64,000 bases of DNA from Maribacter sp. ACAM166 (GTDB lineage: Bacteria > Bacteroidota > Bacteroidia > Flavobacteriales > Flavobacteriaceae): the NCBI RefSeq assembly GCF_005771495.1, contig NZ_VAUW01000001.1, positions 62,001-126,000 of the forward strand. Direction: 5' to 3'. Below are positions 11,784 through 30,826 of this stretch, in pieces. The translations under genes and the position numbers were made by a program. How positions within the stretch are numbered: position 1 is the first letter of the stretch; the number at the start of each line of letters is the position of its first letter. The notes under the pieces were generated by a model, which was not told the origin of the DNA, ran no database searches, and worked only from the letters and a program-made list of their open reading frames with translations.

Positions 11784-11822
11784 TGTCAAAATATTTTACA
11801 TTATCTGTACAACATTTTTACA
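11784..11822 (+). promoter_or_regulatory. Paired 17-bp activator sites upstream of the tolC unit
   Basis: TGTCAAAATATTTTACA (11784-11800) and TGTACAACATTTTTACA (11806-11822) are two TGT-N11-ACA sites with centres 22 bp apart, that is, on the same face of the helix. The same pair with the same spacing recurs at 22929-22967 and 30710-30748. The centre of the second site lies 73 bp before the GG of the sigma-54-like element at 11886. Probable enhancer for the adjacent NtrC-family regulator; the same sites could also autoregulate the divergent two-component operon. Confidence 0.7.
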
Positions 11823-11885
11823 GTCTATCTAAATTTGAATTAATATGAAATATATAAGAAGCTGATAAGCAACGAATTAGAATCT

Positions 11886-11900
11886 TGGCACATATATAGT
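11886..11900 (+). promoter_or_regulatory. Sigma-54-like promoter of the tolC unit
   Basis: TGGCAC-ATATA-TAGT keeps the -24 element TGGCAC and the 5-bp spacer. The -12 element is TAGT where TTGC is usual, so only T and G agree. It predicts transcription from about 11912, 15 nt before the ATG at 11927. That makes the TTG at 11909 unusable as a start codon. Confidence 0.6.
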
Positions 11901-11926
11901 AATGTGTATTGCATACCATTATAGAA

Positions 11927-13273
11927 ATGAATCAAAAAATTAAAATAACAACCATTTTACTCTTCTCCATGTGGAGTTCCATCTTTTCTCAAGAAACATG
12001 GACGTTAGATGAATGTGTGTCCTTTGCATTAGAGCATAATTTACAAATCAATGACTTTGAATATAACAACGAATCTAACAGGGAGACGTACAGACAATCA
12101 ATCCGTAATTTATTACCATCAGTTAATGCCAGTACTAATTATAATGTCAGTTTTGGTAGAGCAGAAGATCCGAATACGGGAACATTCGTTAATCAAGATT
12201 TTTACTCTAATAATTATTCTTTAGAATCGTCGATTGATTTGTTTCAAGGATTTCAGAAAATCAATTCCATCAAAGCGTCAAAGTTTTTATTTAAGGCAAC
12301 GCAAGAAGAAGTATTGCAGCAAAAATATTTATTGGCCTTTAGGGTTATGCAGGCTTTTTATGATATTCAGTTCTTTGAAGGGCTGGTCGCTATATCGAAA
12401 GAGCAGTTAACCGTTTCCCAATCCAATTATGATTTGGTAGAGAAGCAAATAGAATTAGGGCTAAAAGCCGGTGCCGATTTGTACGAAGCGGAATCGTTAT
12501 TATTGACCGATAAGTTGAATGTGACACAAAGTAATAATCAATTAGCTGGTGCCAAGCTTGCACTTATTCAAGAGATGAATTTGGAAAATGTTTCAGATAT
12601 TTTAATTCAAGAAGATTTCGATACTATGACTGATGTGTTAAAGGATGAGGAACTAAAATCAGATTCTATTTACATTGAGGCTAGGGAGTTTTTACCTTTA
12701 ATTAAGGCACAAGAAATGAGGGCAAAAGCCGCTAAAAAGCAAGTAGCGATATCAAGAGGAAGACTCTATCCATCACTTTCACTATTTGCTGGTGTGGGTA
12801 CAGGCTATTTTGAAACTACACGAGATACATTAGGGAATACATTACCCTTTAGAGAGCAGTTTAGAGATAATACATCACAATATATAGGTGTGAATCTAAA
12901 TGTCCCTATAAGCAATGGTTGGTCTGCAAGGTCTAGAGTGAAACAATCAAAAATAGAACGACTTAGGGTAGAGAATAATTTGAAGACCCAAGAACAGGAG
13001 CTTTTTCAGGCAATTCAGAAATTAGTTCAAGAATATAATTCATTACTGGTTGAACTGGTACAGAGCAATCAAAAAATGGAAGCGCAAAACCTTGCGTTCA
13101 CCATTGCACAAAAAAGATATGAAAAAGGGATGATAAATGCATTGGAGTTATTCACCGCAAAGAATTTGTTTGCAAGTGCACAAAATGAAAATTTACAGGT
13201 AAAGCTTCGCTCAGAAATAAATAAAAGTACGTTAGATTTTTACAGGGGTTTACCAGTATTTAATATAAACTAA
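11927..13273 (+). CDS. TolC-family outer-membrane efflux protein
   Basis: 448 residues from the ATG at 11927. A longer frame from a TTG at 11909 is rejected because it spoils the signal peptide (hydrophobic stretch ending SSIFSQ) and starts before the predicted transcript. Two outer-membrane-efflux repeats occupy about 30-220 and 245-440, rich in the long helices of the periplasmic tunnel (LAFRVMQAFYDIQFFEGLV; LFQAIQKLVQEYNSLL). Conserved features are WTLDECVSFALEHN at the start and YEKGMINALELFTAKN near the end. It would be the outer-membrane channel of the tripartite exporter encoded downstream and is the only TolC in the block. First gene of sigma-54 unit 1. Confidence 0.93.
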   Translation: MNQKIKITTILLFSMWSSIFSQETWTLDECVSFALEHNLQINDFEYNNESNRETYRQSIRNLLPSVNASTNYNVSFGRAEDPNTGTFVNQDFYSNNYSLESSIDLFQGFQKINSIKASKFLFKATQEEVLQQKYLLAFRVMQAFYDIQFFEGLVAISKEQLTVSQSNYDLVEKQIELGLKAGADLYEAESLLLTDKLNVTQSNNQLAGAKLALIQEMNLENVSDILIQEDFDTMTDVLKDEELKSDSIYIEAREFLPLIKAQEMRAKAAKKQVAISRGRLYPSLSLFAGVGTGYFETTRDTLGNTLPFREQFRDNTSQYIGVNLNVPISNGWSARSRVKQSKIERLRVENNLKTQEQELFQAIQKLVQEYNSLLVELVQSNQKMEAQNLAFTIAQKRYEKGMINALELFTAKNLFASAQNENLQVKLRSEINKSTLDFYRGLPVFNIN

Positions 13274-13373: not shown

Positions 13374-14624
13374 ATGGATATAAAATTAGAAAAGAAAAAA
13401 GGATTAAAGCCCAAGCATTATGGGTACATCGCAATAGGTTTATTGATTCTATTTGTGGGATATAAACTTCTGTTTGCAAGCTCGGTTTCAACCTTTAGAA
13501 CGGAAAAGGACAAGCTATCAATAGCAGATGTGACAGCTGGCAAATTCGATGATTACATTACCATTAATGGTAATGTAGCTCCTATAGCCACAATTTATAT
13601 GGATGCTTACGAAGGTGGACGTGTAGAGGAAAAATTAATGGAAGAGGGTGCAATGGTCAAAAAGGGTGAGATTATTCTGAAATTGGATAATATTAATCTC
13701 TATGAGCAGATATTACAGAGTGAAAGTGGATTGGCATTAAAACAGAACGATTTGCGACAAACTAAATTGAATTTTGATTCAAGACAGGTAGAAGGCAGAA
13801 AATCTTTGGCAACGGCCAGCACCGAACTTCAAAGGTTAAAAAGAAATTTTGAACAGAACCAGGCTCTGTTCAAAGAAGAATTGATTTCGAAGGAAGTATA
13901 TCAGATATCAAAGGAAAACTTTGAACTATCGCAAAAACAATATGAAATTGTAAAAGTACAGACAGAGAACGATAATGAGTTAAGAGAAACATCATTGCCG
14001 GTACTGGAAACAGATTTAAATCGTATGCAAGAAACACTTGGTATGGTCTACCAACGTTTGGACCACCTAAACGTCCGCGCGCCAGCAGATGGCCAATTAG
14101 GGTTTTTAGATGCCGAAATTGGACAAAGTATTACACAAGGCCAACGTATCGGAGAAATCAATGTATTAACCGATTTCAAAATAAAAGCGAACATAGACGA
14201 ACACTATCTTGACCGGGTCGTAAAAGATTTGACTGCACTTTTAGATCGAAACGGTAAAGAATATCCACTTCGATTGCGAAAAGTTTTTCCCCAAGTGAAT
14301 AACGGAAAGTTTGAGGTAGAATTAGTCTTTACAAAATATAAACCTGAAACTATTAGAACCGGGCAGAGTTATAACATCAAATTACAGTTGGGAGAATCTA
14401 ACGATGCCCTTTTATTACCAAAAGGGAGCTTTTTTCAAAGTACCGGTGGTCAATGGATTTTTGTAGTAGGACCAAATGGCGATGAGGCTATCAAAAGAAA
14501 CATTCGAATAGGAAAACAGAACTCTAGATTTTACGAAGTATTGGAAGGTTTAGAAGCAGGGGAAAAAGTAATTACAAGTAACTATGATAATTTCGGAGAG
14601 GCCGAAAGAATAGTATTAAAATAG
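13374..14624 (+). CDS. HlyD/MacA-family periplasmic adaptor protein
   Basis: 416 residues. A single N-terminal membrane anchor lies at about 18-36 (YGYIAIGLLILFVGYKLLFA). A biotinyl-lipoyl-like hairpin half (GGRVEEKLMEEGAMVKKGEIILKLD) follows at about 82-106, then a long coiled coil about 115-225, the second lipoyl half (VRAPADGQLGFLDAEIGQSI), a beta-barrel and a membrane-proximal domain ending GEKVITSNYDNFG. It bridges inner-membrane permease and TolC. It is the only adaptor for all nine permeases, so it would have to be shared if they act as tripartite pumps. Confidence 0.93.
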   Translation: MDIKLEKKKGLKPKHYGYIAIGLLILFVGYKLLFASSVSTFRTEKDKLSIADVTAGKFDDYITINGNVAPIATIYMDAYEGGRVEEKLMEEGAMVKKGEIILKLDNINLYEQILQSESGLALKQNDLRQTKLNFDSRQVEGRKSLATASTELQRLKRNFEQNQALFKEELISKEVYQISKENFELSQKQYEIVKVQTENDNELRETSLPVLETDLNRMQETLGMVYQRLDHLNVRAPADGQLGFLDAEIGQSITQGQRIGEINVLTDFKIKANIDEHYLDRVVKDLTALLDRNGKEYPLRLRKVFPQVNNGKFEVELVFTKYKPETIRTGQSYNIKLQLGESNDALLLPKGSFFQSTGGQWIFVVGPNGDEAIKRNIRIGKQNSRFYEVLEGLEAGEKVITSNYDNFGEAERIVLK

Positions 14625-14688: not shown

Positions 14689-15384
14689 ATGATAACCATT
14701 ACGAATCTAAAAAAGAGCTTTAAAACAGAAGAAGTAGAAACTTTGGCTTTGAACAACGTCAATCTTAAAGTTGAGGATGGTGAGTTTGTTGCTATTATGG
14801 GGCCTTCTGGTTGCGGTAAATCTACGCTTCTAAATATAATAGGCATGTTGGATAACCCTACTGATGGTAGTTACAATTTTGCCGGTAACGAGGTTGGTGG
14901 CTTAAAAGAAAGTCAACGTACACAATTACGAAAAGGAAATCTGGGGTTCGTATTTCAAAGTTTTAATCTAATAGATGAACTTACTGTTTATGAAAATGTA
15001 GAACTGCCTTTAATCTATTTGAAAATGGGGAAAGCAGAACGTAAAGAGAAAGTAATGAAGGTTTTGGAGCGTATGAAGATTGCCCATCGAGAAAAGCATT
15101 TTCCGCAGCAATTGTCGGGTGGTCAACAGCAACGTGTTGCTATTTCAAGAGCGGTGGTAACTAACCCAAAACTGATATTGGCCGATGAGCCTACAGGTAA
15201 TCTAGATTCTAAGAATGGATTGGAGGTCATGAATCTATTAACAGAATTAAATCAAGAAGGAACCACAATAGTAATGGTTACCCACTCAGACCATGATTCT
15301 CATTTTGCCCATAGAATAGTCAACCTATTCGATGGTCAAATTGTAACTGAAAGTCAGAATAGGGCTATAGGCGCAATGATATAA
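14689..15384 (+). CDS. ABC transporter ATPase, MacB/LolD type (ATPase 1)
   Basis: 231 residues, a single nucleotide-binding domain with no membrane part. Walker A GPSGCGKST at 38-46, Q loop FVFQSFNL, signature LSGGQQQRVAISRA, Walker B LILADEPTGNLDS, switch His in MVTHSDHD. The sequence type is that of ATPases serving FtsX/MacB permeases, and three such permeases follow in the same unit. Each 800-residue permease is a fused pseudo-dimer, so two copies of the ATPase per complex are expected. A homologue closes the block at 38322. Confidence 0.95.
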   Translation: MITITNLKKSFKTEEVETLALNNVNLKVEDGEFVAIMGPSGCGKSTLLNIIGMLDNPTDGSYNFAGNEVGGLKESQRTQLRKGNLGFVFQSFNLIDELTVYENVELPLIYLKMGKAERKEKVMKVLERMKIAHREKHFPQQLSGGQQQRVAISRAVVTNPKLILADEPTGNLDSKNGLEVMNLLTELNQEGTTIVMVTHSDHDSHFAHRIVNLFDGQIVTESQNRAIGAMI

Positions 15385-15522: not shown

Positions 15523-17871
15523 ATGTTTAAAAACTATATCAAAATCGCTTGGCGAAATCTCTGGAAGAATAAAGGGTATAGTTTGCTCAATATTTTTGGC
15601 TTGGCAATAGGGATTACCTGTGCAGCCATGATACTGCTTTGGGTAGAGGATGAGGTTGGTTTTGATAGCAATTTTTCGAAACAAGATGTTGTGTATTATG
15701 TGCCTACCAATCAGCAATATGATGGGGAATGGCGAACGTTTTTTCAGGCAACTCCGGGTCCGTTGGCTCAAGAGTTGAAAGATGAGGTTCCGGGTATTGT
15801 CGGTGCTGCCAGAACAAAGGGAGAGGATTTGCTGTTTCAAGTAGATGACAAATCTATCAATAAAAACGGACGGTTTGCTGATCCAGATTTTCTAAACATG
15901 TTCAGTCTTTCTTTTGTGGAGGGGAGTTTAGAAAACGCTTTCAATGAAGTAGATGCAATTGTAATTTCAAAGAAAGCAGCCACGCAACTTTATGGGAAAC
16001 ATACAGCAGCTTTAGGAAAAGTGGTTAAAGTTAATAACGATACCAATTATACCATATCAGGAGTTTTTGAAGATTTGCCGAGCAATGTAACGTATAGTTT
16101 TGATTGGGTTGCTCCATTTGAACGATATGCCGTTGGTAAAGATTGGATGCTGGAATATGGTTCTCTTTTCTCAGATACATTTGTAGAACTTTCTCCAGAA
16201 GCAGATTTTAATACCGTGAATAGTACGGTAGAAAAAATACTACCAGCAAAGACGGAAGATGAAGAAACCTATGCATTTTTGCATGCAATGAAAGATTGGC
16301 ATTTAAGGTCAACCTTTGAAGGCGGAAAAAAAATTGGAGGACAAATTATATATGTACGGTTATTTGGACTTATAGCCCTTATTATACTATTGATAGCGTG
16401 TATTAATTTTATGAACCTAGCTACCGCTAGAAGCGAAAAGCGGGCCAATGAAGTTGGGGTAAGAAAGGTATTAGGGTCAGGCAGAAAAGGACTAATTTCT
16501 CAATTTATGGCCGAAGCGGTTATTACTGCTTCTTTATCTGCCATGGTGAGTGTAGTGTTGTTAAAACTACTTATTCCTCAGTTTAATTTGCTTATTGATA
16601 AACAATTGGAGCTTGGTTTGTTTAACCCAGTACACGTGTTTACAATACTAGGAATAACATTGGTTTGTGGTGTAATTGCAGGTTGGTATCCTGCATTCTA
16701 TTTATCCTCTTTTAAACCTGTAGATGTACTTAAAGGATCTCTTAGTAACCAAGGTAGTGCACCCTTAATACGAAAAGGATTAGTTGCAACTCAATTTATT
16801 ATTTCCATAGTATTTATTATCAGTACTATAATAGTATATCAGCAGGTACAGCACGTTAAGGGAAGAGATTTGGGATATGAAAAGGAAAATCTAGTTAAAA
16901 TTCCTGTGAACGGAGATATCATCAAAAATTTTGAGGTTATAAAACAAGACATGATTGCATCGGGCATGATTAAAAATTTGGGTCTCAATAATTCTGAAAT
17001 CTTATCAGGAGGTAATAATACATCTGGCTTAGAATGGCAGGGTGGTGTAGATACTGAAAATGTGTTAGTTTCAACGCGGTATATAAGTTCAGGTTTTTTT
17101 GATACTGCTGGTATGGAAATAGTTGAGGGTAGAGGGTTTAGTAGTAATCCTTTGAAGGATAGTACCAACCTTATTGTTAGCGAGTCGTTTGCAAAGTTAA
17201 TGGGAGCGGGTAGTGCTATTGGTAAAACAGTAGAAAATGATTACCCCGTAATAGGTGTTGTTAAAGACTATTTATATGATGACATGTATGGTTCTAGTGA
17301 TCCAGTACTATTTTTCAATTACCATGGTGAGGCGCGTTTTCTATATGTAAAAGCCAAGTCTGGTATAGCAACAGCTTCGGCCTTGTCTGCGATGAAAGTG
17401 ACCTTGGAAAAATATAATCCGGCGTATCCATTTGAGTATGAATTCGTAGATGATGCATTTAATGCCAAATTTAAAAGTGAAAAATTAATAGGAAGCCTTT
17501 CTCAAATTTTCGCTTTGCTGGCAATTATTATTTCTTGTTTAGGTCTATTTGGATTATCGGCATTTACTGCAGATCAGCGTCGTAAAGAAATTGGTGTTCG
17601 TAAAGTTTTAGGGTCTAGTATTACCAGTATTGTTAGCTTATTGTCAAAAGATTTTATGCAATTGGTAGCTATCGCTATTTTAATTGCAAGCCCTATTGCT
17701 TGGTTGCTCATGCAAAACTGGTTGGAGAGTTTTGCCTATCGTATTTCTATTAATATTTGGGTTTTTGTTATTGCTGGTATGGTTGCAATGGTCATCGCGT
17801 TGCTTACCGTAAGTTTTCAAGCTATCAAAGCGGCAAGAGCAAACCCTGTAAAAAGTTTACGTACACAATGA
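15523..17871 (+). CDS. FtsX/MacB-type ABC permease 1 of the array
   Basis: 782 residues, shortest of the nine. All nine share one plan, described here. Membrane segment 1 (about 20-43) is followed by a MacB-type periplasmic core domain (about 45-270), three segments (about 277-300, 325-350, 370-395), segment 5 (about 420-445), a second periplasmic core (about 446-655) and three more segments (about 660-685, 710-730, 742-765). The cytoplasmic coupling motifs are EVGVRKVLG after segment 2 and EIGVRKVLG after segment 6. The protein is therefore two FtsX modules in one chain, and needs a separate ATPase, supplied by the preceding gene. The C-terminal tag is NPVKSLRTQ. The first 60 bp of the gene are nearly identical to those of permease 5, evidence of duplication. 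Substrate unknown. Confidence 0.93.
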   Translation: MFKNYIKIAWRNLWKNKGYSLLNIFGLAIGITCAAMILLWVEDEVGFDSNFSKQDVVYYVPTNQQYDGEWRTFFQATPGPLAQELKDEVPGIVGAARTKGEDLLFQVDDKSINKNGRFADPDFLNMFSLSFVEGSLENAFNEVDAIVISKKAATQLYGKHTAALGKVVKVNNDTNYTISGVFEDLPSNVTYSFDWVAPFERYAVGKDWMLEYGSLFSDTFVELSPEADFNTVNSTVEKILPAKTEDEETYAFLHAMKDWHLRSTFEGGKKIGGQIIYVRLFGLIALIILLIACINFMNLATARSEKRANEVGVRKVLGSGRKGLISQFMAEAVITASLSAMVSVVLLKLLIPQFNLLIDKQLELGLFNPVHVFTILGITLVCGVIAGWYPAFYLSSFKPVDVLKGSLSNQGSAPLIRKGLVATQFIISIVFIISTIIVYQQVQHVKGRDLGYEKENLVKIPVNGDIIKNFEVIKQDMIASGMIKNLGLNNSEILSGGNNTSGLEWQGGVDTENVLVSTRYISSGFFDTAGMEIVEGRGFSSNPLKDSTNLIVSESFAKLMGAGSAIGKTVENDYPVIGVVKDYLYDDMYGSSDPVLFFNYHGEARFLYVKAKSGIATASALSAMKVTLEKYNPAYPFEYEFVDDAFNAKFKSEKLIGSLSQIFALLAIIISCLGLFGLSAFTADQRRKEIGVRKVLGSSITSIVSLLSKDFMQLVAIAILIASPIAWLLMQNWLESFAYRISINIWVFVIAGMVAMVIALLTVSFQAIKAARANPVKSLRTQ

Positions 17872-17927
17872 AGTAAAAATAAAATGCGGTGAGTTTATCG
17901 CATTATCAATCATCAAAAACGAGAATC

Positions 17928-20345
17928 ATGTTTAGAAATCATATTAAAATAGCTTGGCGAAGCATAAAAAAAGATAAGCTTTTTACCACCATTAAAATTG
18001 GTGGTTTTGCGGTTGGTATTGCAGCCTGTTTGTTGATTGCCTTGTTCATTCGAAATGAAGTAGGTTATGACCAGCATTATAAGAATAAAAATCAAATATA
18101 TAGGGTAGTAATGCAGGGCTTATTTAATAGCGAAACTGTTAAAAGCACCCATTTTCAATTACCACTTGCTGATGCACTACAATCAGATTTTCCTGAAATA
18201 ATTAAAGCAGGTAAGGTAAATAATATCGAAATCTTTGGCGCCGGTAAACGTGGTATGCGTCTTGAAGGTTTTAATCAGAATAATTTTGAGGATGGTTTTC
18301 TACTTGCAGATCAAGAGGCCTTTGAAATTTTAGAAATCAACTTAGAGCAGGGTAATCCTGAAACCGCGTTATCCAATCCAAAAAGTATTGTCATTTCTAA
18401 AACGAAGGCGGCTAAATATTTCAAAGACGGTAAAGTATTAGGAGAAACCATTATTTTGGACAATGATTCTTCAACGCCTTATACGGTAACAGGAGTGATG
18501 AAAGATATTCCGAAGAACTCACATCTTAATTTTGATTTTCTGCTTCCCATAGAAGATACCCGAATGAGTTGGACAAATCAAAACTACTTTACCTATGTTT
18601 TGGTTGACCCGAATACCAATATTCAAGAATTGGAGAAAAAGATGATTTCCATTGTTGAAGACTATGTTATTCCCGCACAATTAGACCGAGGTCGCGCACC
18701 AGATTTTATAGACGTTCTTAGAACTATTGAATATAAGCTTCAACCGGTAACCGATATCCATCTGTATTCCGATATTAAAATGGCAGACGGTTTAAAACAT
18801 GGAGATATCCGTTTTGTATGGTTATTTGCCGCCATTGCCGGTTTCGTTTTGTTATTGGCGGTCATAAATTTCATTAATTTATCTACAGCAAAATCAGCCA
18901 ATAGAGCCAAAGAGGTTGGCCTTAGAAAGACCATTGGAGCATTTAAAAGTAACTTAATTTTCCAATTTCTGACCGAATCTATAATGTTTAGTCTAGTCTC
19001 TTTTCTGCTTGGTATTCTGCTAGCGTGGTTGTTACTTCCTTCGTTTAATTCAATTGCCTCTAAAACAATTACAATGCCATGGACAGTATGGTGGTTTTTA
19101 CCCATGGTCTTAGTTTCTGCGCTATTGGTTGGGGCAATCGCTGGGCTATATCCTGCATTTTATTTATCATCCTTTAAACCTGTCAATGTATTAAAAGGAA
19201 GTTTAAGTCTAGGAGGTAAAAGTGGGAAACTAAGAAGTGGTCTAGTTATATTTCAATTTACTACTTCGGTCATCTTAATTATTGGAACCCTAATCATTTA
19301 TCAACAAATGGACTTTATCCTTAAAAAGGAATTGGGGTATGATAAAGAGCACGTAGTTATTCTTGAAGGAACCAATGTTTTAGGTAAAAGTACCGAAGCG
19401 TTCAAAGCTCAACTACTACAATTACCAATGGTTAAGGAGGTTACCGTAACAAATTATTTACCAGTTGATGGGGCGAGTAGAAACGGGAATACGTTTAGGC
19501 GGGCTGATGAAGGGAATGAAGGTAGGGGTGTGCCAGCTCAAATTTGGAGAGTAGATTACGATTACATTAAAACATTGGGGATGAAGTTAAAAGAAGGTAG
19601 GGATTTTTCTAAAAAGTTCGCTTCCGATTCTTTAAACGCTATTATTATCAACGCTAGTATGGAACACGAACTTGGGTTAACCAATGCTATAGGCCAAGAA
19701 ATTGACAATAACGGGCAAATGTTTAAAATCATTGGCATTGTTGAAGATTTTCATTTTAAGTCTTTAAAAGAAGATATTTCATCACTGTCACTAGTTATAG
19801 GTAAAGATACTGGTGCGATATCGGTAAAACTTGAAAAAGGAAATGTTAACCAAGCATTAGCATCCATAGAATCTCTTTGGAATAAAAATATTCCAAATCA
19901 ATCTATCAATTATAACTTTTTAGATCAAGAGTTTACACGTATGCATGATGATGTTCAACGCATGGGCAAAATATTCAACAGTTTCGCGCTCTTCGCCATT
20001 TTCGTAGCATGTTTAGGCCTCTTTGCACTATCTGCTTTCATGGTAGAACAACGAAAAAAAGAAATTAGCATACGGTTAGTTTTAGGTGCTCCTTTTAAAA
20101 GTATTTACCAATTGCTAACGCTTGATTTTATGAAGTTGATATTTATTTCAATCTGTATTGCAATTCCGATAGGTTGGTATTTAATGAACCGTTGGCTACA
20201 AGATTTTGCATATCATATTACTATTGGCTGGGGCACATTTTTAGTAGCCTCACTCATTGCTTTAACCATAGCTATACTTACCATCAGCTATCAGTCTGTA
20301 AGTGCGGCACTCATAAAACCTTTAAAAGGGTTAAGAACAGAATAA
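17928..20345 (+). CDS. FtsX/MacB-type ABC permease 2 of the array
   Basis: 805 residues from ATG 17928. An in-frame GTG at 17889 would add 13 polar residues and is rejected because the N-terminus MFRNHIKIAWRSIKKD then aligns with the other permeases. First coupling motif EVGLRKTIG. The second is EISIRLVLG, where the usual Gly-Ile-Arg-Lys is altered (Lys to Leu), and the C-terminal tag is KPLKGLRTE instead of NPVKSLRTE. Its second module is therefore the most divergent at the ATPase-contact side. Two periplasmic core domains are present. 56 bp after permease 1, same unit. Confidence 0.92.
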   Translation: MFRNHIKIAWRSIKKDKLFTTIKIGGFAVGIAACLLIALFIRNEVGYDQHYKNKNQIYRVVMQGLFNSETVKSTHFQLPLADALQSDFPEIIKAGKVNNIEIFGAGKRGMRLEGFNQNNFEDGFLLADQEAFEILEINLEQGNPETALSNPKSIVISKTKAAKYFKDGKVLGETIILDNDSSTPYTVTGVMKDIPKNSHLNFDFLLPIEDTRMSWTNQNYFTYVLVDPNTNIQELEKKMISIVEDYVIPAQLDRGRAPDFIDVLRTIEYKLQPVTDIHLYSDIKMADGLKHGDIRFVWLFAAIAGFVLLLAVINFINLSTAKSANRAKEVGLRKTIGAFKSNLIFQFLTESIMFSLVSFLLGILLAWLLLPSFNSIASKTITMPWTVWWFLPMVLVSALLVGAIAGLYPAFYLSSFKPVNVLKGSLSLGGKSGKLRSGLVIFQFTTSVILIIGTLIIYQQMDFILKKELGYDKEHVVILEGTNVLGKSTEAFKAQLLQLPMVKEVTVTNYLPVDGASRNGNTFRRADEGNEGRGVPAQIWRVDYDYIKTLGMKLKEGRDFSKKFASDSLNAIIINASMEHELGLTNAIGQEIDNNGQMFKIIGIVEDFHFKSLKEDISSLSLVIGKDTGAISVKLEKGNVNQALASIESLWNKNIPNQSINYNFLDQEFTRMHDDVQRMGKIFNSFALFAIFVACLGLFALSAFMVEQRKKEISIRLVLGAPFKSIYQLLTLDFMKLIFISICIAIPIGWYLMNRWLQDFAYHITIGWGTFLVASLIALTIAILTISYQSVSAALIKPLKGLRTE

Positions 20346-20352
20346 AAAAATT

Positions 20353-20380
20353 TTGTTGAGCGAGTTCATTCAGCGTAGTC
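20353..20380. repeat. Short intergenic repeat, partial copy
   Basis: TTGTTGAGCGAGTTCATTCA then GCGTAGTC resembles the GAGCG...CTGAGCGTAG repeat at 15410 and 23068, with mutations. It lies between permeases 2 and 3. Confidence 0.4.
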
Positions 20381-22928: not shown

Positions 22929-22967
22929 TGTAAATATATTAGACATCCTTTGTCCAAATATTTTACA
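22929..22967 (+). promoter_or_regulatory. Paired 17-bp activator sites upstream of unit 2
   Basis: TGTAAATATATTAGACA (22929-22945, matching the consensus in reverse) and TGTCCAAATATTTTACA (22951-22967) have centres 22 bp apart, as in the other two copies. The second site's centre is 62 bp before the GG of the TGGCAT element, 11 bp (one helical turn) less than in units 1 and 3. Confidence 0.7.
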
Positions 22968-23019
22968 GTTTAAAAATAGTAATTAATTTAAATAATTAAT
23001 AATCAATACATTAGGTGTG

Positions 23020-23034
23020 TGGCATGAAATTAGT
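23020..23034 (+). promoter_or_regulatory. Sigma-54-like promoter of unit 2
   Basis: TGGCAT-GAAAT-TAGT: -24 element nearly perfect, 5-bp spacer, weak -12 (TAGT, as in unit 1). Start predicted near 23046, giving a leader of about 86 nt that contains an intergenic repeat. Confidence 0.55.
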
Positions 23035-23131: not shown

Positions 23132-25564
23132 ATGTTTGCAAACTATTTTAAAATCGCTTGGAGAAGTTTAAAAAAGCAATCTTTTTTTACATTTCTCAAC
23201 ATAATTGGTCTTTCCATTGGTATCACGGGAGCATTGTTGATTACGCTATATGTAGTTGATGAAGTAAATCATGATACGATGTTCAAAGATGTGGACCGGA
23301 TTTATCGCATAGATACGGACATCAAGTTCGGCGGTGTGGAAATGAAAGCCGCCGAAGCTGCTGCGCCCATGGCGGCAGCCATGAAAAAAGATTTTCCGCA
23401 AGTGAAGCAAACCGTTAGATTACGCACTAGAGGAAGTGCCCTTGTAAGGCCAGTGGGCGAGCAAGCGAACGCCAAGGAAACGAACGTAGCTTTTGCCGAT
23501 GCCTTTTTTTTTGATTTTTTCGGGATTGATGTAGTATCTGGCGATGCCAAGACGGCGTTGTCCGAACCCAAAACATTAGTCCTGACAAAAACTGCGGCCG
23601 AAAAGCATTTTGGTAAGGAATCTGCGTTAGGAAAGCGGCTGTTGCTTAATAACACGGATACGTATACCGTAAGTGGGGTTATAGATGATCTTCCAAAAAA
23701 CTCAATTCTTAGGGATTATTCCATTTTTATGGCTATGGAAGGCTATCCTGCATCTAAGGAAAATAATTGGGGAGGCAGTAATTTTGTCACATTTATAAAA
23801 CTGGCATCAGGTGCCGATATTGAAGATTTTCAAGAGCCTTTGCAAGGTATGTTGGAAGATTATATGTTGCCTTGGGCACAGAAGTATTTTCCGGGAATGA
23901 CAGGTGAAACCTTTGAAGCTTCTGGTAATTATATACGCTATCATACCATGCCCTTAGCTGACATTCATCTTTATTCACAACGCGACCAAGAAATGAGTGC
24001 CAATGGTAGTATTCAAAACGTGTATATCTTATCGTTTATAGGACTCTTTCTCATGATATTGGCCAGTGTGAACTTTATGAACCTGTCTACGGCGCATTCC
24101 CTAAAAAGGGCAAAAGAGATTGGCGTGCGAAAAACGCTGGGGTCTAGCACCCGAGATTTAGTATGGCAGTTTTTAACCGAATCGGTATTGATTTCGTTTC
24201 TATCCCTCGTGGCGGGCATGCTATTAAGTGCAGCGTTACTTCCATATTTCAATCAACTTTCCGGAAAGGAGATTTCCATACCGTTTACTAATGCTACTTT
24301 TTGGATAATTATTTTAGCGGCCACAGTTTTATTGGGTCTTTTTTCAGGTAGTTATCCTGCTTCTTTTATGTCTCAATTTGAGCCGGTAAAAACCCTTCAA
24401 GGTGGAGGACAAAGTAGTGTTGGCGGAGGTAAGGTGAGAAATGCATTGGTTGTGTTTCAATTCGGAATTTCCGTTTTTCTGATCGTAGGAACATTAGTGG
24501 TATTTCAACAATTGAATTTTATTCAGAGTAAGGACCTAGGCTTTACCAAGGATCAAATTTTGATCTTGGAGGATACGTTTAGTCTAGGCAATCAGATTAC
24601 TGTATTTAAGGATGAAATTAAGGAGTTGAGTCAGGTGGAGAACGCTACAGTAAGCGGCTTTTTACCGACGCCATCATGGCGATCAAATAGTTCTTATTTT
24701 GAGGAAGGAGCTAGAGATCAAGAAAGTGCCATTTCTATTCAGACATGGAAAGTAGATGACGATTATATGTCAACATTGAATATGGAACTTATTGCAGGTC
24801 GCGATTTTGATAAAAAAATAATAGCCGATTCTCTTTCGGTCATTATTAACGAGGCCACGTTGCCCATTATGGGGGTAAATGCCACCGAGGCATTGGGAAT
24901 GCGTATTTCTGAAGATATCGAAAAAGAGATTCCCCAATATTTTAAGGTAATCGGGGTGGTAAAGAATTTTCACTTTGAGTCTTTAAAGGAGAATATTCAA
25001 CCTTTAGGACTCTTTATGGGCGCATCAACAGGTACTATGGCGGTTAAATTAAAAGCAGGGGACTTTTCAGAAGCCCTTGCAGGTATCGAAGGTATTTGGA
25101 ATAATATGGCACCGGGGCAACCCTTTAGTTATCGGTTTATGGATGAATCGTTCAACGCTACCTATGATGCAGAACAACGCCTGGGCAAAATATTCACTGT
25201 ATTTACTTTTTTATCCATTCTAATCGCCTGTCTCGGGTTGTTCGGATTGGCAGCCTTCAACGCACAAAAACGAACTAAGGAAATAGGCATACGAAAAGTA
25301 TTGGGTGCCAGTGTCGGTCAAATCAGTTTCCGACTTACGACCGATTTTTTAAAAATGGTAGGTATAGCAATTCTTATTGCAATGCCATTAGGCTGGTACG
25401 TGATGAACAAATGGCTAGAAGATTTTTCCTACCGTATTGAAATTGGCTTCGGGGTATTTGCTTTAGCCGCCTTTTTGGCAATTACGGTAGCAGTTGTGAC
25501 GGTAAGTTTTCAAAGTATTAAAGCGGCCATTGTAAACCCAGTAAAAAGTTTACGGTCAGAATGA
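23132..25564 (+). CDS. FtsX/MacB-type ABC permease 4 of the array
   Basis: 810 residues, first gene of unit 2. N-terminus MFANYFKIAWRSLKKQSFF matches the family. Coupling motifs EIGVRKTLGSS and EIGIRKVLGAS, tag NPVKSLRSE. The stretch 23330-23660 in the first periplasmic domain is visibly richer in G and C (Ala-rich coding) than the flanking permeases. The periplasmic cores differ strongly from those of permeases 1-3 while the membrane parts match, as expected if the cores determine specificity. Confidence 0.92.
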   Translation: MFANYFKIAWRSLKKQSFFTFLNIIGLSIGITGALLITLYVVDEVNHDTMFKDVDRIYRIDTDIKFGGVEMKAAEAAAPMAAAMKKDFPQVKQTVRLRTRGSALVRPVGEQANAKETNVAFADAFFFDFFGIDVVSGDAKTALSEPKTLVLTKTAAEKHFGKESALGKRLLLNNTDTYTVSGVIDDLPKNSILRDYSIFMAMEGYPASKENNWGGSNFVTFIKLASGADIEDFQEPLQGMLEDYMLPWAQKYFPGMTGETFEASGNYIRYHTMPLADIHLYSQRDQEMSANGSIQNVYILSFIGLFLMILASVNFMNLSTAHSLKRAKEIGVRKTLGSSTRDLVWQFLTESVLISFLSLVAGMLLSAALLPYFNQLSGKEISIPFTNATFWIIILAATVLLGLFSGSYPASFMSQFEPVKTLQGGGQSSVGGGKVRNALVVFQFGISVFLIVGTLVVFQQLNFIQSKDLGFTKDQILILEDTFSLGNQITVFKDEIKELSQVENATVSGFLPTPSWRSNSSYFEEGARDQESAISIQTWKVDDDYMSTLNMELIAGRDFDKKIIADSLSVIINEATLPIMGVNATEALGMRISEDIEKEIPQYFKVIGVVKNFHFESLKENIQPLGLFMGASTGTMAVKLKAGDFSEALAGIEGIWNNMAPGQPFSYRFMDESFNATYDAEQRLGKIFTVFTFLSILIACLGLFGLAAFNAQKRTKEIGIRKVLGASVGQISFRLTTDFLKMVGIAILIAMPLGWYVMNKWLEDFSYRIEIGFGVFALAAFLAITVAVVTVSFQSIKAAIVNPVKSLRSE

Positions 25565-25644
25565 AACATTTGAATATTAAATCACTCTTTATAGTAGAAT
25601 GAATTAATAATAAGAAACATCAATCAAATCAAAAAACGAGAATC

Positions 25645-28044
25645 ATGTTTAAAAACTATGTAAAAATCGCTTGGCGAAATCTTTGGAAGAACAAGGGGTA
25701 TACTTTTATAAATGTTGGGGGTCTCGCATTGGGTATGGCCGTAACACTGATTATCGGGCTTTGGATACAGGATGAACAATCCCATAATAGTTATTTTAAA
25801 AATAGGGATAGCATCGCCCAAGTCTATCAATCACAGACTTTGAATGGAGAAACAGAGAGCGGACCTGCGATTCCTAGACCTTTAGAAAAGGCCTTGAGGG
25901 ATGGTTATGATGACAATTTTAAACATTTGACCATGTGTTCTTGGACCAATAATCATTATTTAAAATATGGCGAGACAAGTATATCTAGACCTGGTAATTA
26001 TATGCAACAGGTGGGGCCAGAACTATTTGGTCTAGAAATAATTAGAGGAGAGAAAGACGGACTTCGAGAAATTAACTCCATCATGCTGTCCGAATCTACT
26101 GCCGCGGCACTATTTGCTAGCGAAGATCCGATTGGAAAAACAGTTACAGTAAGTAATGAACACAAATTAAATGTAAGTGCAATCTATACCGATATCCCTT
26201 TTAACAATACGTTTAATGACACCGATTTTATAATTCCTTGGGAGAAATATTTGGCAAGTAATGAATGGATTCGAAATGCAGAAGACCAATGGGGTAATAA
26301 TTCTTTTCAAATGTTCGTTCAATTGGCCGACAATACAACATTCGATAAAGTCACCAATACAATCAAGGATGTAAAAAAGAATCTTAATGAGGATACAGCT
26401 CAATTTAATCCTCAGATTTTCCTTTTCCCTATGAAAGACTGGTATTTGCGTAATAATTTTGAGAACGGGAAACAAGTAGGTGGTCGTATTAAATATGTAT
26501 GGCTTTTTGGTATTATCGGGGCTTTTGTACTGCTTCTGGCATGTATTAATTTCATGAATTTAAGTACGGCTAGATCAGAGAAACGTGGTAAAGAAGTTGG
26601 CATTCGAAAAGCAATAGGATCACAGAGAGGTCAATTAATATATCAATTTTTAAGTGAATCTTTTTTAGTTGTTTTATTTGCTTTTTTCTTAGCCATGTTG
26701 CTTGTAATTCTATCCTTGAGCGGATTTAATGAATTGTCGAGAAAGGAAATTTCGTTTCCTTGGGATAATGGCACTTTTTGGCTGATTTCCATCGTATTCA
26801 TTCTATTCACCTCATTATTGGCAGGTAGTTATCCGGCGTTGTATCTATCTTCTTTTAAGCCTGTAGATGTTTTAAAGGGAACTTTTAAAGTGGGAAAATA
26901 TGCAGGTTTGCCGAGAAAGATAATGGTTGTGGTACAGTTTACCGTTTCAGTAGCTTTTATCATTGGTACGGTGATTGTAATGCAGCAAATAAATCATGCT
27001 AAGAACCGTCCGGTTGGTTATGATAAGGAAGGTCTCATACAAATTCCGACATTTAGTCAAGATTTTTTAGGTAAATATGATTTGATTCGAACTGAGTTTT
27101 TAGGTTCGGGAGCCGTTGTAGAAATGTCAACTTCTAGTAGTCCGACTACACAAATTTGGTCTAATAGAGGAGGTTTTACATGGGAAGGAAAACCAGAAGG
27201 ATTTCAAGAAGATTTAGCATGGACAGAAGTCTCGCCAGAGTATGCAAAATCCTTAAATCTCAAAATTATAGAAGGAAGAGATTTTTCAAGAGATTTTGCT
27301 ACGGATTCTTTAGGAGTACTCATTAATGAAACGGCGAAGAAATATTTAGGTATGGAAAACCCTGTGGGTCAACTTTTAAGAGACGATGACGAAGAAGATC
27401 CGGGACCATCGTTGAAAATTATTGGTGTGGTACAAGATATGATAACTCAATCTCCTTATGAACCGGTTAAACAGGGTGTTTATGTATATGATAGGTTCAA
27501 TAATTCGAGTTACTATAATCTAAGGCTAAACCCAAATCATAGTGCTACTCAAAACATTGTTGAAATTGAACGGGTTTTTAAAGAGCATTTTCCAGACATC
27601 CCTTTTGAATACGAATTTGTAGATGGACAATACGGAGAAAAATTTGCATCAGAAGAGCGTATAGGTACACTTTCGGGCATTTTCACTGCACTGGCTATAC
27701 TAATTAGTTGTTTGGGGCTATTTGGTCTTACCTCATTTGTGGCAGAACAACGAAAGAAAGAAATAGGAGTACGAAAAGTATTGGGAGCATCGATATTTAA
27801 TGTGTGGAATATGCTTTCAAAAGACTTTCTGAAACTAGTGATTACCTCTTGCTTTATAGCAGTACCCATCGCATACTACGTTATGAATGGCTGGTTGCAA
27901 GCATATCCATATAGAGTAGTATTACAGTGGTGGATTTTCGCATCGGCCATGGTGGGAGCTATGTTAGTAACCCTTTTAACGGTTAGTTTTCAAGCAATTA
28001 AGGCCGCCAAGACTAATCCGGTAAAGAGTTTAAGGACGGAGTGA
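25645..28044 (+). CDS. FtsX/MacB-type ABC permease 5 of the array
   Basis: 799 residues. N-terminus MFKNYVKIAWRNLWKNKGYT is almost the same as permease 1 at DNA level. Coupling motifs EVGIRKAIGSQ and EIGVRKVLGAS; tag NPVKSLRTE. The leader CATCAATCAAATC...GAGAATC before the ATG resembles those of permeases 2 and 3, so the duplication unit may include the leader. Second gene of unit 2, 80 bp after permease 4. Confidence 0.92.
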   Translation: MFKNYVKIAWRNLWKNKGYTFINVGGLALGMAVTLIIGLWIQDEQSHNSYFKNRDSIAQVYQSQTLNGETESGPAIPRPLEKALRDGYDDNFKHLTMCSWTNNHYLKYGETSISRPGNYMQQVGPELFGLEIIRGEKDGLREINSIMLSESTAAALFASEDPIGKTVTVSNEHKLNVSAIYTDIPFNNTFNDTDFIIPWEKYLASNEWIRNAEDQWGNNSFQMFVQLADNTTFDKVTNTIKDVKKNLNEDTAQFNPQIFLFPMKDWYLRNNFENGKQVGGRIKYVWLFGIIGAFVLLLACINFMNLSTARSEKRGKEVGIRKAIGSQRGQLIYQFLSESFLVVLFAFFLAMLLVILSLSGFNELSRKEISFPWDNGTFWLISIVFILFTSLLAGSYPALYLSSFKPVDVLKGTFKVGKYAGLPRKIMVVVQFTVSVAFIIGTVIVMQQINHAKNRPVGYDKEGLIQIPTFSQDFLGKYDLIRTEFLGSGAVVEMSTSSSPTTQIWSNRGGFTWEGKPEGFQEDLAWTEVSPEYAKSLNLKIIEGRDFSRDFATDSLGVLINETAKKYLGMENPVGQLLRDDDEEDPGPSLKIIGVVQDMITQSPYEPVKQGVYVYDRFNNSSYYNLRLNPNHSATQNIVEIERVFKEHFPDIPFEYEFVDGQYGEKFASEERIGTLSGIFTALAILISCLGLFGLTSFVAEQRKKEIGVRKVLGASIFNVWNMLSKDFLKLVITSCFIAVPIAYYVMNGWLQAYPYRVVLQWWIFASAMVGAMLVTLLTVSFQAIKAAKTNPVKSLRTE

Positions 28045-28148
28045 ATTAATAAGCTGTGTTCAGTAATCAGTTAACAGAATTTAGTTGTTTGTAATCTGGG
28101 AAAATGTAAACAATAAGTAATAGGATTGTCTAAGCGAACAAATCTAAA

Positions 28149-30569
28149 ATGATGACTACACTTTATTTAAAAATTGCTTTTAGGTACCTACTAAAAAATG
28201 GGCTGTACTCATTTATAAATATTTTTGGGCTGGCAATAGGTATCGCTTCGTTTGTACTTATTTCGATGTACGTAAATTACGAATACGCTTATGATACCTT
28301 TGAAGGCTCTGAAAATGTACAACGGGTTTACATGGACTATACCGAAGAAGGTGTGTTTGTTCCTGGGGATGCGCAGACTTATAATTTGAGCGGACCTACT
28401 TTGAAAGAAGCATTTCCTGAAATCAAAGAATTCACACGGTTAAGTCATATTACCAATGTTACATTTAAACATGAAAATAAACTGATTAATGGGGAGAAAG
28501 GGGCACTGGCGGATCCATCTTACGTCACTGTTTTTAAGTATCCCTTACTTAAGGGTGATTATAATACCGTTTTAAAAGATCCCTACACTATTGTATTGAC
28601 GGAATCGCTTGCCAAAAAGATTTTCGGGAATCTGAATCCTATGGGTAAATCGGTACAAATTTTTTATGGTGGGGAAAAAGTGTTTACGGTAAATGGCGTT
28701 TTGGAAGATCTGCCAAAGAACACCCATATGAAAAATGATTTCTTAATTTCATTCAACACAGCACTAACTTGGGAGGGGTATCGAGATAATCCAGAACCTA
28801 ACTGGAGTGGTAATAATATATTTACCTATATCAAACTTGGCGAAAATGCAGATATAGCTCTTTTGAAGAAAAAGATAATGGCTTTTAAAGTGGATGCCTT
28901 GCCCTTTGAAAGACATAATATTGAACCTTTAGAAGATATTCATTTATATTCGGATAAACCGTATGAGGCAGAGGCAAATGGAAGTATACGTAGGGTTCGT
29001 TTTTTATTGGCGATTGCACTGATTATCATTATCCTTTCTTGGTTGAACTATGTGAATCTTTCGACCGCAAAATCTTTGGAGCGTGTAAAGGAAACCGGTA
29101 TACGTAAAGTGGCTGGTGCTAAAAAATCTCAGATCATTTTGCAATCACTCTTAGAATCCTCATTATTGAATTTGGTTGCTATTGTCATGGCCACTGTTAT
29201 AATATTAATTACGCTACCAATTTTTAATAGGTATATAGGTAAAGAATTAATTGTTGGTCTTTCGACGATTCAGCATTTTATACCAATGATTGGATTCATT
29301 CTTTTTGGAACATTGCTGTCTGGATTGTATCCAGCTTTTATTCTTAGCAATTTTACCACCGCCAACGCCTTGAAAGGAAAGATACGTGCTTCAAGCAGTG
29401 GGCTTACATTACGAAAAACCTTAATTATGGGTCAATTTTTAGCAACCATAATATTGCTGATAGGGACAATTACGATTACAAAGCAAATAGATTTTTTACA
29501 AGATCAACCTATTGGTGCAACTTTAAACCAAGTGCTAGCAGTAAATGGAAAAATTATGGGTAATAAATCCGATTCCATTAGAAGAAATGAAATAGAAGAA
29601 TTAAAAAACGAAATCAGGAACTTATCCTATGTTAAAACCACCGTCCTGGCACAGACCTATCCCGGCGGAGAATATGACAACCTTTCTTCTAATGTAGGCA
29701 TAACCTTTCCGAATGGTAGAAGAGATGAAACACGTATTTGGTATAACTACGCCGTCGGTCCTGAATATTTTCAGTTGATGGATATGGAATTTGTGGCGGG
29801 TAATTCTTTTATAAAAAATTCAAAAGGGTATAGTAATCAAATTGTTTTAAACGAACGCTTTGTGAAACATATGGGAATATTGAATATGGAGAATGCCATA
29901 GGCAAAACGGTAAAATTCTTTGAGGAAGATTGGATTATTTCTGGAGTTATAGAAGACTATCATCATTTTGGTTTGAAAACAAGTATTGAGCCGATGCTTT
30001 TACGTTACGACAAGAATGTAAGCAACATACTTATAAAAATAGACCAGAATGCTGTTTCAATAGGAGGTGTGAACGGGGCAATTAGCCAAATTGAGAGTAA
30101 ATGGATGGAAAGGTTTCCTGAAAGCACATTCAATTATACATTTTTGGACCAAAAATTCGAAGCGCAATATAATGAGGATAGGGCCTTTGGTTCGGCCTTT
30201 CAAATATTTGCAATTTTGGCGATACTTATTGCTTCTATGGGCCTATTTGGTCTTACTTCTTACACCGTGGTACAGCGTAAAAAAGAAATTGGCATACGAA
30301 AAGTAAATGGAGCCACTATTAGGCAAGTACTTGTTCTTTTGAACAAAGACTTTGTAAAATGGGTCGGGTTGGCTTTTATCATTGCTGTTCCTATCGCTTG
30401 GTTTGCTATGAATCATTGGTTGATGGATTTTGCATATAGAACCACAATGAATTGGTGGATTTTTGCTTTGGCAGGGATTATTGCCTTGACAATAGCCATG
30501 CTTACGGTAAGCTGGCAAAGTTATACTGCAGCAAGGGCCAATCCAGTAAAAAGTTTGAGAACGGAATAA
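28149..30569 (+). CDS. FtsX/MacB-type ABC permease 6 of the array
   Basis: 806 residues, starting MMTTLYLKIAFRYLLKNGLY, a less conserved N-terminus than its neighbours. The coupling motifs ETGIRKVAGAK and EIGIRKVNGAT have lost the usual Leu before Gly in both modules. The tag NPVKSLRTE is kept. No activator sites or -24 element are visible in the 104-bp gap before it, so it should belong to unit 2 as its last gene. Confidence 0.92.
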   Translation: MMTTLYLKIAFRYLLKNGLYSFINIFGLAIGIASFVLISMYVNYEYAYDTFEGSENVQRVYMDYTEEGVFVPGDAQTYNLSGPTLKEAFPEIKEFTRLSHITNVTFKHENKLINGEKGALADPSYVTVFKYPLLKGDYNTVLKDPYTIVLTESLAKKIFGNLNPMGKSVQIFYGGEKVFTVNGVLEDLPKNTHMKNDFLISFNTALTWEGYRDNPEPNWSGNNIFTYIKLGENADIALLKKKIMAFKVDALPFERHNIEPLEDIHLYSDKPYEAEANGSIRRVRFLLAIALIIIILSWLNYVNLSTAKSLERVKETGIRKVAGAKKSQIILQSLLESSLLNLVAIVMATVIILITLPIFNRYIGKELIVGLSTIQHFIPMIGFILFGTLLSGLYPAFILSNFTTANALKGKIRASSSGLTLRKTLIMGQFLATIILLIGTITITKQIDFLQDQPIGATLNQVLAVNGKIMGNKSDSIRRNEIEELKNEIRNLSYVKTTVLAQTYPGGEYDNLSSNVGITFPNGRRDETRIWYNYAVGPEYFQLMDMEFVAGNSFIKNSKGYSNQIVLNERFVKHMGILNMENAIGKTVKFFEEDWIISGVIEDYHHFGLKTSIEPMLLRYDKNVSNILIKIDQNAVSIGGVNGAISQIESKWMERFPESTFNYTFLDQKFEAQYNEDRAFGSAFQIFAILAILIASMGLFGLTSYTVVQRKKEIGIRKVNGATIRQVLVLLNKDFVKWVGLAFIIAVPIAWFAMNHWLMDFAYRTTMNWWIFALAGIIALTIAMLTVSWQSYTAARANPVKSLRTE

Positions 30570-30709
30570 TTTGACAGAATGATATTAATTAGAATTTTCA
30601 GCCAATCTTTTAAAATAAGTAGGTAATTTAATTTTTTATTTTGAGGCGATTGAAAGTAAAATTTTTAGCGTGCTACAATTAACTTGACCTAAAAAGATTA
30701 CTAATTCAT
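30570..30709. other. AT-rich spacer after permease 6
   Basis: First part of the 383-bp gap before permease 7. No open frame, hairpin with a T-run, or recognised repeat is seen here; the regulatory sites begin at 30710. Confidence 0.5.
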
Positions 30710-30748
30710 TGTAAAATTTTTATACAAAAACTGTCCAAAAATTTTACA
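30710..30748 (+). promoter_or_regulatory. Paired 17-bp activator sites upstream of unit 3
   Basis: TGTAAAATTTTTATACA (30710-30726, reverse orientation) and TGTCCAAAAATTTTACA (30732-30748), centres 22 bp apart. The second differs from the unit 2 site by one base. Its centre is 73 bp before the GG of the -24 element, exactly as in unit 1. Confidence 0.7.
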
Positions 30749-30811
30749 TTATTGAGTTTTGTCCTACCAATAATATAGTATAACTATCAGATTTACAATA
30801 GGTTGAGAATA

Positions 30812-30826
30812 TGGCATGAAAATCGA
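30812..30826 (+). promoter_or_regulatory. Sigma-54-like promoter of unit 3
   Basis: TGGCAT-GAAAA-TCGA. The -24 half and spacer equal those of unit 2 (TGGCATGAAA is shared). The -12 half retains only T and G. Predicted start near 30838, leader about 115 nt. Confidence 0.55.

Follow-up and report, generated by a model that had tools for sequence, protein, structure and literature searches.

The nearest known counterparts of the regulatory arrangement considered here are the glnA, nif and Psp types of system, in which an NtrC-type enhancer is combined with a site for integration host factor (IHF) and a sigma-54 promoter. We analysed a stretch of 64,000 nucleotides of the genome of Maribacter sp. 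ACAM166 (Flavobacteriaceae; contig NZ_VAUW01000001.1, positions 62,001 to 126,000; hereafter the window, at its full length), in which a short module of DNA occurs three times in front of genes for a MacB-type exporter. The comparative sequence evidence makes it very likely that a single two-component system encoded beside the first module controls a sigma-54 regulon of three units that would make a tripartite exporter with many alternative permeases. The architecture itself is plain: before each unit stand two 17-bp sites 22 bp (about two helical turns) apart, followed by a promoter of the form TGGCAY-N5-T-N-G. With the NtrC-type systems it shares the paired 17-bp dyads, an AAA+ response regulator with a Fis-type helix-turn-helix (HTH) domain, the normal spacing of the -24 and -12 elements and an IHF-consensus site between enhancer and promoter. 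It differs from them in the exact 22-bp spacing, in a second site that is only ~62-73 bp from the -24 element, in an A/T core, in a -12 element T-N-G without conserved C, in a sigma-54 contact loop of the form GxFTDA, and in the repetition of the module through one gene bank.

As for the exporter, the parts of the MacAB-TolC type (PDB 5nik, 5lil) are all found, namely a core permease with MacB_PCD and FtsX domains, an HlyD adaptor, TolC and a MacB-like ATPase, and the first permease of the window (permease 1) matches MacB structures with a best value of 4.5e-14. Unlike in MacAB-TolC, the permeases are separate from the ATPase and duplicated (~800 amino acids), and there are nine of them for two ATPases. 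Permeases of the ADOP family form large paralogous sets without an ATPase of their own. The ADOP model (TIGR03434) is the best match of permease 1, over nearly the full length, although the score (299.8 bits) is below the cut-off (622.3) and the permeases of the window are grouped with an ATPase, an adaptor and TolC under a single regulator. The darobactin exporter DarBCD (NF038008, NF038010, NF038007) supplies the top equivalogs for both ATPases (DarD; 300 for ATPase 1 and 239 for ATPase 2, cut-off 375) and for the adaptor (DarC, 198, cut-off 450), and the second-best model for permease 1 (DarB, 128, cut-off 700), but with all scores under the cut-offs these models do not indicate membership in that system, the genes for precursor and maturase not having been searched for.

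A link between sigma-54 and such permeases is less new in the light of a survey that, in its accessible portion, reports that sigma-54 promoters are enriched before COG0577 permeases of Bacteroidia, and calls this the first evidence for FtsX-like permeases (PMC12316311). That portion holds statistics at the level of COGs and names no activator, enhancer pair, module geometry or locus. The regulon is a case of the known NtrC-type sigma-54 architecture for which, as far as the accessible portion goes, there was previously just a statistical hint at the level of gene families (PMC12316311). In Flavobacterium psychrophilum, of the same family, one sigma-54 and three predicted activators are described, with SM4 promoters at envelope-stress and surface genes, and the selection printed in Table 2A of the excerpted text includes no gene of the exporter (PMC9723704). 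The literature searches, which mostly lay outside subscription papers, yielded among the matches listed no account of the regulon or of the permease banks, and no paper with both GAFTGA and GSFTDA.

Module geometry in the window, the genome and the genus

The modules and the adjacent two-component system are located as follows.

11784..11822 (sites 11784-11800 and 11806-11822), plus strand: enhancer pair of module 1, before tolC (pattern search; tolC pair in 20 of 20 genus loci read)
11886..11899, plus strand: sigma-54 promoter of module 1, TGGCAC-N5-TAG, GG 73 bp past the second centre (pattern search, genus comparison)
22929..22967 (22929-22945 and 22951-22967), plus strand: enhancer pair of module 2 (pattern search)
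23020..23033, plus strand: sigma-54 promoter of module 2, TGGCAT-N5-TAG, GG at 62 bp (pattern search, genus comparison)
30710..30748 (30710-30726 and 30732-30748), plus strand: enhancer pair of module 3 (pattern search)
30812..30825, plus strand: sigma-54 promoter of module 3, TGGCAT-N5-TCG, GG at 73 bp (pattern search, genus comparison)
10358..11722, minus strand: NtrC-type response regulator, sigma-54 activator and predicted binder of the modules (PF00158 1.6e-68, PF00072 1e-18, PF02954 2.7e-14)
9012..10358, minus strand: sensor histidine kinase (PAS and HATPase_c), partner of the activator (PF02518 1.3e-22, PAS 6e-05)

A first-pass annotation of this stretch had described six 17-bp sites with centres 22 bp apart within each pair, followed by a TGGCAY whose GG lies 73, 62 and 73 bp past the second centre. 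Sites, distances and the 22-bp spacing of all three pairs hold to the base, with TGGCAY starting at 11886, 23020 and 30812. The further statement that the six sites share TGTnnAAAnATTTTACA or its inverse stands in so far as TGT, ACA and an A/T-rich core are present throughout, but the longer form is loose, and the site at 22929 (TGTAAATATATTAGACA) does not fit it. Eleven TGT-N11-ACA sites are present in the window, and the only distance of up to 60 bp between any of them is 22 bp, found three times. In the whole genome (4,920,497 bases), the exact pair TGT-N11-ACA-N5-TGT-N11-ACA occurs at three places, all in the modules, and the reversed pattern at none, so that the random scatter over the genome that the annotation had named as speaking against its proposal is not seen. 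A 16-base version with up to two mismatches is found at six places, the three modules with no mismatch and three others with two, against two places for its reversed control. The single-site pattern TGTNNAANNNTTTTACA occurs six times, five of them inside modules, and because the reversed control gives four, the excess over chance lies in the clustering and not in the count. A chance origin of the modules was considered and rejected on the spacings in the window, the exact-pair and mismatch counts and the clustering of the single-site pattern.

The same geometry pervades the genus. The exact pair is present in 35 of 36 genomes, at 93 places versus nine for the reversed control; at least five of these places (in G020, G021, G024, G026 and one in G030) are chance matches as judged by the core. 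Inspection of the sequences themselves, which from G030 to G035 took in one chance place in G030, showed a high-scoring pair in 29 genomes out of 36 and none in G025, which is 68% complete. Twenty loci (from 19 genomes, plus the window with its flanks) were read whole, 781 kb in all. They contain 225 TGT-N11-ACA sites, among which 55 cases of the 22-bp spacing stand against no more than one case of every other spacing up to 80 bp; since the loci were picked via the 22-bp pattern, it is this contrast with the other spacings that constitutes the evidence. All 55 pairs precede a tolC or a permease gene, and a pair stands before tolC in all 20 loci, which is the recurrence in orthologous loci that the annotation had proposed to look for. 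The gene order, as far as the loci were fetched, is common to the genus: kinase and regulator, pair, tolC, adaptor, ATPase 1, permeases, ATPase 2, amidase.

The modules are, furthermore, distributed over the intergenic gaps in a distinctive manner. The count covers 19 loci (G013, with broken frames, was left out here and in the permease grouping below) and gaps of up to 1500 bp, and 54 of the 226 gaps hold a module. The best pair score per gap exceeds 27 in 54 and is below -5 in 172, with none between. Modules are found in 0 of 138 gaps below 100 bp, in 3 of 22 of 100-150 bp, in 13 of 21 of 150-200 bp, in 32 of 34 of 200-300 bp and in 6 of 11 longer ones; the seven gaps of at least 200 bp that have no module all follow ATPase 1. 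Given this distribution, the modules mark the probable starts of transcription units. In G010, an identical 39-bp pair is present on two contigs (L013 and G010:C77:80507), at contig base 2 in one of them, possibly as an assembly duplicate.

The pair and the adjacent regulator in other genera

The annotation's assignment of the gene at 10358-11722 to the NtrC family is borne out by its domains, a receiver, a sigma-54 AAA+ domain and a Fis-type HTH, all of which were found; the nearest solved structure by sequence is the NtrC-family protein 4l4u, and the best named relatives come from Maribacter litoralis (91%) and from a Maribacter metagenome-assembled genome (MAG; 90%), the nearest records being possibly excluded. 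The recognition helix reads SRQTLYNK. The kinase gene adjoins the regulator gene in 20 of 20 genus loci. RpoN is encoded once in the genome, and of 12 matches to PF00158 four are strong and span the domain, the regulator among them.

Upstream of 60 of 80 named relatives of the regulator the exact pair is present, and the GG of the first TGGCA after it lies at 73 bp in 44, at 72 in 10, at 74 in two and elsewhere in two, with no TGGCA in the remaining two. Eight more of the 80 have a pair with one mismatch and a TGGCA at 72-73 bp.

An even sample of 149 genomes of the family, in which 19 encode the regulator at no less than 60% identity, allows a sharper comparison. The exact pattern was matched in 43 of these genomes at 68 places, as against 30 for the reversed control. 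With a matrix built from 44 genus sites, for which G000 and G016 belonged to the training set, 64 of the 68 pairs were scored, including one of three in each of these two genomes. A score of at least 29 was reached by 33 of the 64, all within regulator genomes, and the next (16.2, in G141) lies inside an open reading frame (ORF). A pair scoring above 15 is found in 16 of 19 regulator genomes versus 1 of 130 others (Fisher p = 1.3e-17). Of the three exceptions, one (G072) is truncated by the end of its contig; in G079 and G114 the pairs carry one and two mismatches and TGGCACG lies at 74 and 73 bp, so that the pair is present in 18 of 18 testable regulator genomes, in two of them with mismatches. 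In these and further stretches, a pair scoring at least 14 was seen eight times with spacing 22, and no other spacing in the range 17 to 59 was seen more than once. Forty of the 68 places were read with ~3.5 kb on each side, 31 high-scoring and nine others. The high-scoring pairs stand at the regulator and tolC (14), before a permease of ~800 amino acids (12), before ATPase 2 (two) and elsewhere (three), and 26 of the 31 are followed by a TGGCA with its GG at 72-75 bp. Among the nine low-scoring pairs, four (L216-L219) are inside ORFs and L201 is probably due to chance.

The remaining four (L215, L220, L221, L222) are of a different kind. Here the pair lies between a regulator of ~47% identity and an adaptor-first operon, the 22-bp geometry is retained and the GG is at 63 bp in all four, yet the core is unlike the A/T core, and the recognition helix reads TR[TA]ALYRR versus [ST]RQTLYNK. 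Shared geometry together with a core that changes with the helix is what direct recognition predicts. Farther afield, a stringent pattern was matched in 5 of 395 genomes of the class, G000 and G067 among them. In G556, from another family of the class, a regulator of 50% identity is divergent from a TolC-like gene, with a CCAA/TTGG core and TGGCACG at 64 bp (L278); in G475 and G565 neither a regulator beside a TolC-like gene nor TGGCACG was found within 3 kb of the match. Some of the 80 relatives' loci belong to genomes of the 149-genome readings, and with such overlaps the samples of 55, 65 (see below), 80 and 149 are not independent.

Could the pairs be bound by another regulator, activator or repressor, the adjacent one being there by accident? 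The genome does encode the three other strong activators, but these are only 36-44% identical to the adjacent regulator over the aligned part, the high-scoring pairs follow the adjacent regulator from genome to genome in the family, and the core of the pair changes with its recognition helix in the four paralogous loci; this possibility is accordingly very improbable. The proposal of the annotation, namely three units under an adjacent activator, is instead supported by comparison: predicted activator-type sites are located upstream of the member units and are not random elsewhere in the genome or the family, and the pair tracks the regulator across genera.

That the regulon is local, as the annotation had it, is true of the genome at hand but not generally, given that one other genus has modules before scattered permeases too. 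In G053, roughly 26 duplicated permeases lie beside the regulator over ~67 kb (L242-L245), with more elsewhere, among the matches listed, and five of nine exact pairs are before scattered permeases. Thirteen further stretches before scattered permeases gave four near-miss pairs with TGGCAY at 72-74 bp, one near-miss pair with no TGGCA and eight with neither. High-scoring pairs in G053 also stand before a small HTH gene (L184), a GldB/DUF2268-like gene (L187) and a DUF2807 gene (L188), possibly further members of the regulon.

Promoter, putative bend site and predicted transcription start

The following elements accompany the promoters.

11867..11879, plus strand: IHF-consensus-like site of module 1, AAGCAACGAATTA, one mismatch to WATCARNNNNTTR (consensus match)
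23001..23013, plus strand: IHF-consensus site of module 2, AATCAATACATTA, exact (consensus match)
30793..30805, plus strand: IHF-like place before the promoter of module 3, two mismatches (consensus match)
11909..11917, plus strand: TTGCATACC, decayed copy of a second TGGCAY (comparison with the tolC promoters of relatives)
11748..11755, minus strand: TAGCTTTA, probable -7 box of the regulator gene's housekeeping promoter, 28 nucleotides from the enhancer pair (genus conservation)

The annotation had read the difference between 62 and 73 bp as a single helical turn, and the two classes indeed recur among the 55 genus promoters: the GG is at 73 bp in 20 of 20 tolC promoters and in two permease promoters, at 61-63 bp in 32 and at 57 bp in one. 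Two main distances one turn apart are to be expected if a loop has to keep its phase. The -12 half, which the annotation had regarded as the main doubt, is T-N-G at the correct spacing. Counting the T of TGGCA as 0, T at +11 and G at +13 are invariant in the 55 promoters, the base between them being A in 43, G in seven and C in five and the base after the G mainly T or A. They are likewise invariant in 65 regulator-linked tolC promoters, a set for which TGGCA was required and T and G were not. These 65 were taken from 69 loci, L108, L127 and L144 (no pair within one mismatch) and L109 (CGGCACG) being left out, and include one Bacteroidales MAG (L168) and several Maribacter loci shared with the genus genomes. 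Of the usual -12 element, the conserved C is missing. The canonical TGGCAY-N5-TTGC is found at 18 places in the genome versus 11 for the reversed control, too few to derive a genome-specific -12 element.

The missing C is one reason to consider that the regulator might be an ordinary activator or repressor of housekeeping promoters, with TGGCAY incidental. Another is the contact loop, GSFTDA, which departs from GAFTGA although its F and T are kept; at this position two of the other strong activators of the genome read GAFTGA and the third GAFTSA. In loci L103-L167 and L169-L171, the loop is GSFTDA or GAFTDA in 66 of 68, gives no match in two and is GAFTGA in none, a count biased towards the former two because SFTDAKDD was among the six peptides used for finding the loci. 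In addition, each of the 20 genus loci carries TANNTTTA on the side of the tolC pair that faces the regulator gene, 28 nucleotides away in 19 and 29 in one, which makes some control of a housekeeping promoter plausible. These points notwithstanding, TGGCAY follows 55 of 55 genus pairs, T and G are invariant in both promoter sets, and the enhancer-promoter distance falls into two main values one helical turn apart, all of which renders this explanation very improbable. The variant loop and the IHF-like site are points beyond those raised by the annotation. Finally, recent duplication of permeases together with their promoters, devoid of regulatory meaning, is hardly credible and can be dismissed: the genus permease modules are closely alike and the permeases paralogous, but the same arrangement precedes tolC and permeases in other genera where the surroundings have diverged, and TGT/ACA, TGGCAY and T-N-G stay constant amid a variable linker and promoter interior, as seen across the 55 genus promoters, the 80 relatives and the 65 tolC promoters.

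The box TANNTTTA is close to TAnnTTTG, given in the accessible text of PMC9723704 as the -7 consensus of flavobacterial housekeeping promoters. A sigma-54 promoter for the regulator gene was considered and rejected: TGGCA at 55-80 bp is found on the transcription side of 55 of 55 pairs and on the opposite side of 2 of 55, and TANNTTTA takes its place. The regulator is probably made from a housekeeping promoter; as the tolC pair is located just upstream of that promoter, the regulator may govern its own level.

A bend-type site matching the IHF consensus is present between pair and promoter in modules 1 and 2. The column profile of the 65 tolC promoters shows a conserved block before the -24 element, with TTR at -9 to -7, equal to WATCARNNNNTTR, the IHF consensus of Escherichia coli. 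With at most one mismatch, WATCARNNNNTTR occurs at a fixed place in 16 of 20 genus tolC promoters, in 29 of 35 genus permease promoters and in 44 of 65 tolC promoters, where shuffling would give 0.13, 0.22 and 0.24, respectively; it also occurs in 18 of 35 further promoters, a count that has no shuffle control. Because the motif was first noticed on tolC promoters, the genus permease set is its cleanest test, and the 65, as the discovery set, are no independent one. The genome has two genes of the HU/IHF family, both under the IHF and HU equivalog cut-offs, and one of the two, in L282, comes slightly closer to IHF alpha (69.3 bits) than to HU-alpha (65.3).

The tolC promoters have a further peculiarity. 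A second TGGCA lies exactly 23 bp past the first in 41 of the 65 (24 bp in four, 25 bp in one) and is absent in 19 (within L103-L171), the bases between the two being variable. Within the genus a second TGGCAY is found in 17 of 20 tolC and in none of 35 permease promoters, and it sits over the predicted transcription start. It is not a second complete sigma-54 promoter at +23, with T.G at the -12 place in only 1 of the 41 copies. Start-proximal pausing, for which the sigma-70 pause element of late lambdoid promoters offers a comparison, could conceivably be involved: it is a rather unlikely conjecture that the lone TGGCAY might act on the RpoN polymerase after initiation as a site of pausing or re-binding and thereby adjust how much of the exporter core is made in relation to the permease units, in which case the GxFTDA loop and the C-less -12 element would be a co-diverged pair of activator and promoter.

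Several observations weigh against the proposed sigma-54 regulon. Binding by the regulator and dependence on RpoN are predicted from sequence; neither the final C of the canonical -12 element nor the GAFTGA loop is conserved; the IHF-like site of module 3 is poor, and the host's IHF is only a candidate protein of the HU/IHF family. Upstream of 12 of the 80 regulator relatives, no pair within one mismatch was found in 450 bp, nine of the 12 being just 50-59% identical and L108 having only 58 upstream bases. In the family, the exact pattern has a chance background from which the core score alone separates the modules. Among the 31 high-scoring pairs, TGGCA at 72-75 bp is missing after L185, L187, L198, L206 and L212, what follows those of L184, L187 and L188 is neither an exporter nor a regulator gene, and that of L193 is within an open frame as called; the permease bank of G053 holds the tolC module only.

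The exporter, its permease bank and a proposed common switch

The genes of the three units are the following.

11930..13273, plus strand: TolC-like outer-membrane factor, first gene of unit 1 (PF02321 4e-47)
13374..14624, plus strand: HlyD/MacA-type adaptor (PF13437 7.5e-10; TIGR01730 passed, 145.0 versus 94.9 bits)
14689..15384, plus strand: ABC ATPase 1, MacB/LolD/DarD type (PF00005 4.1e-37)
15523..22888, plus strand: permeases 1-3, duplicated, ADOP-like, with MacB_PCD and FtsX halves, end of unit 1 (profile matches for permease 1; ORFs compared with relatives for 2-3)
23132..30569, plus strand: permeases 4-6, unit 2 (profile matches for permease 4; ORFs compared with relatives for 5-6)
30953..38987, plus strand: permeases 7-9 and ABC ATPase 2, unit 3 (profile matches for permease 7 and ATPase 2; ORFs compared with relatives for 8-9)

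Grouping at 55% identity sorts the 151 permeases of 19 genus loci into 21 groups. Every genome has a subset of its own, arranged in a similar order; permeases of the tail are possibly lost from this grouping where the fetched loci end early. Between fixed flanking genes, the permease content (15523-38309 in the window; loci L033-L070) is strongly variable across the species of the genus.

In the scenario that we favour, the kinase (9012-10358) would sense an envelope or toxic-compound signal, dimers of the phosphorylated regulator would occupy both sites of a pair and assemble an AAA+ ring, a protein of the HU/IHF family would bend the short DNA between pair and promoter, and the ring would open the complex of RpoN and polymerase. 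The three units would thereby come on at the same time, which would supply the permeases with the TolC, adaptor and ATPases that they share. Our confidence in the regulator, the predicted sites and the promoter is high; for the role of the bend site it is lower, and moderate. By analogy with MacAB, for which the accessible text of PMC5985334 provides the comparison, the cargo role may be defence against, or release of, peptides or other amphiphiles.

The duplicated permease banks of the MacB/FtsX type, found in every one of the 20 genus loci and, at greater size, in another genus, thus gain a predicted shared switch that consists of one kinase-regulator pair, one short DNA module and one sigma factor. 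The permeases vary by species and TolC, adaptor, ATPases and regulator stay, and this pattern suggests that the permeases are interchangeable parts of a shared exporter, placed behind shared promoters. The aligned modules, 55 from the genus, 65 of tolC from beyond and partly within it and the paralogous set, form a body of data on spacing, helical phase and the specificity of the recognition helix that covers sigma-54 control outside the Proteobacteria. For the organism, these findings imply that one signal probably switches the whole bank through the sigma-54 system.

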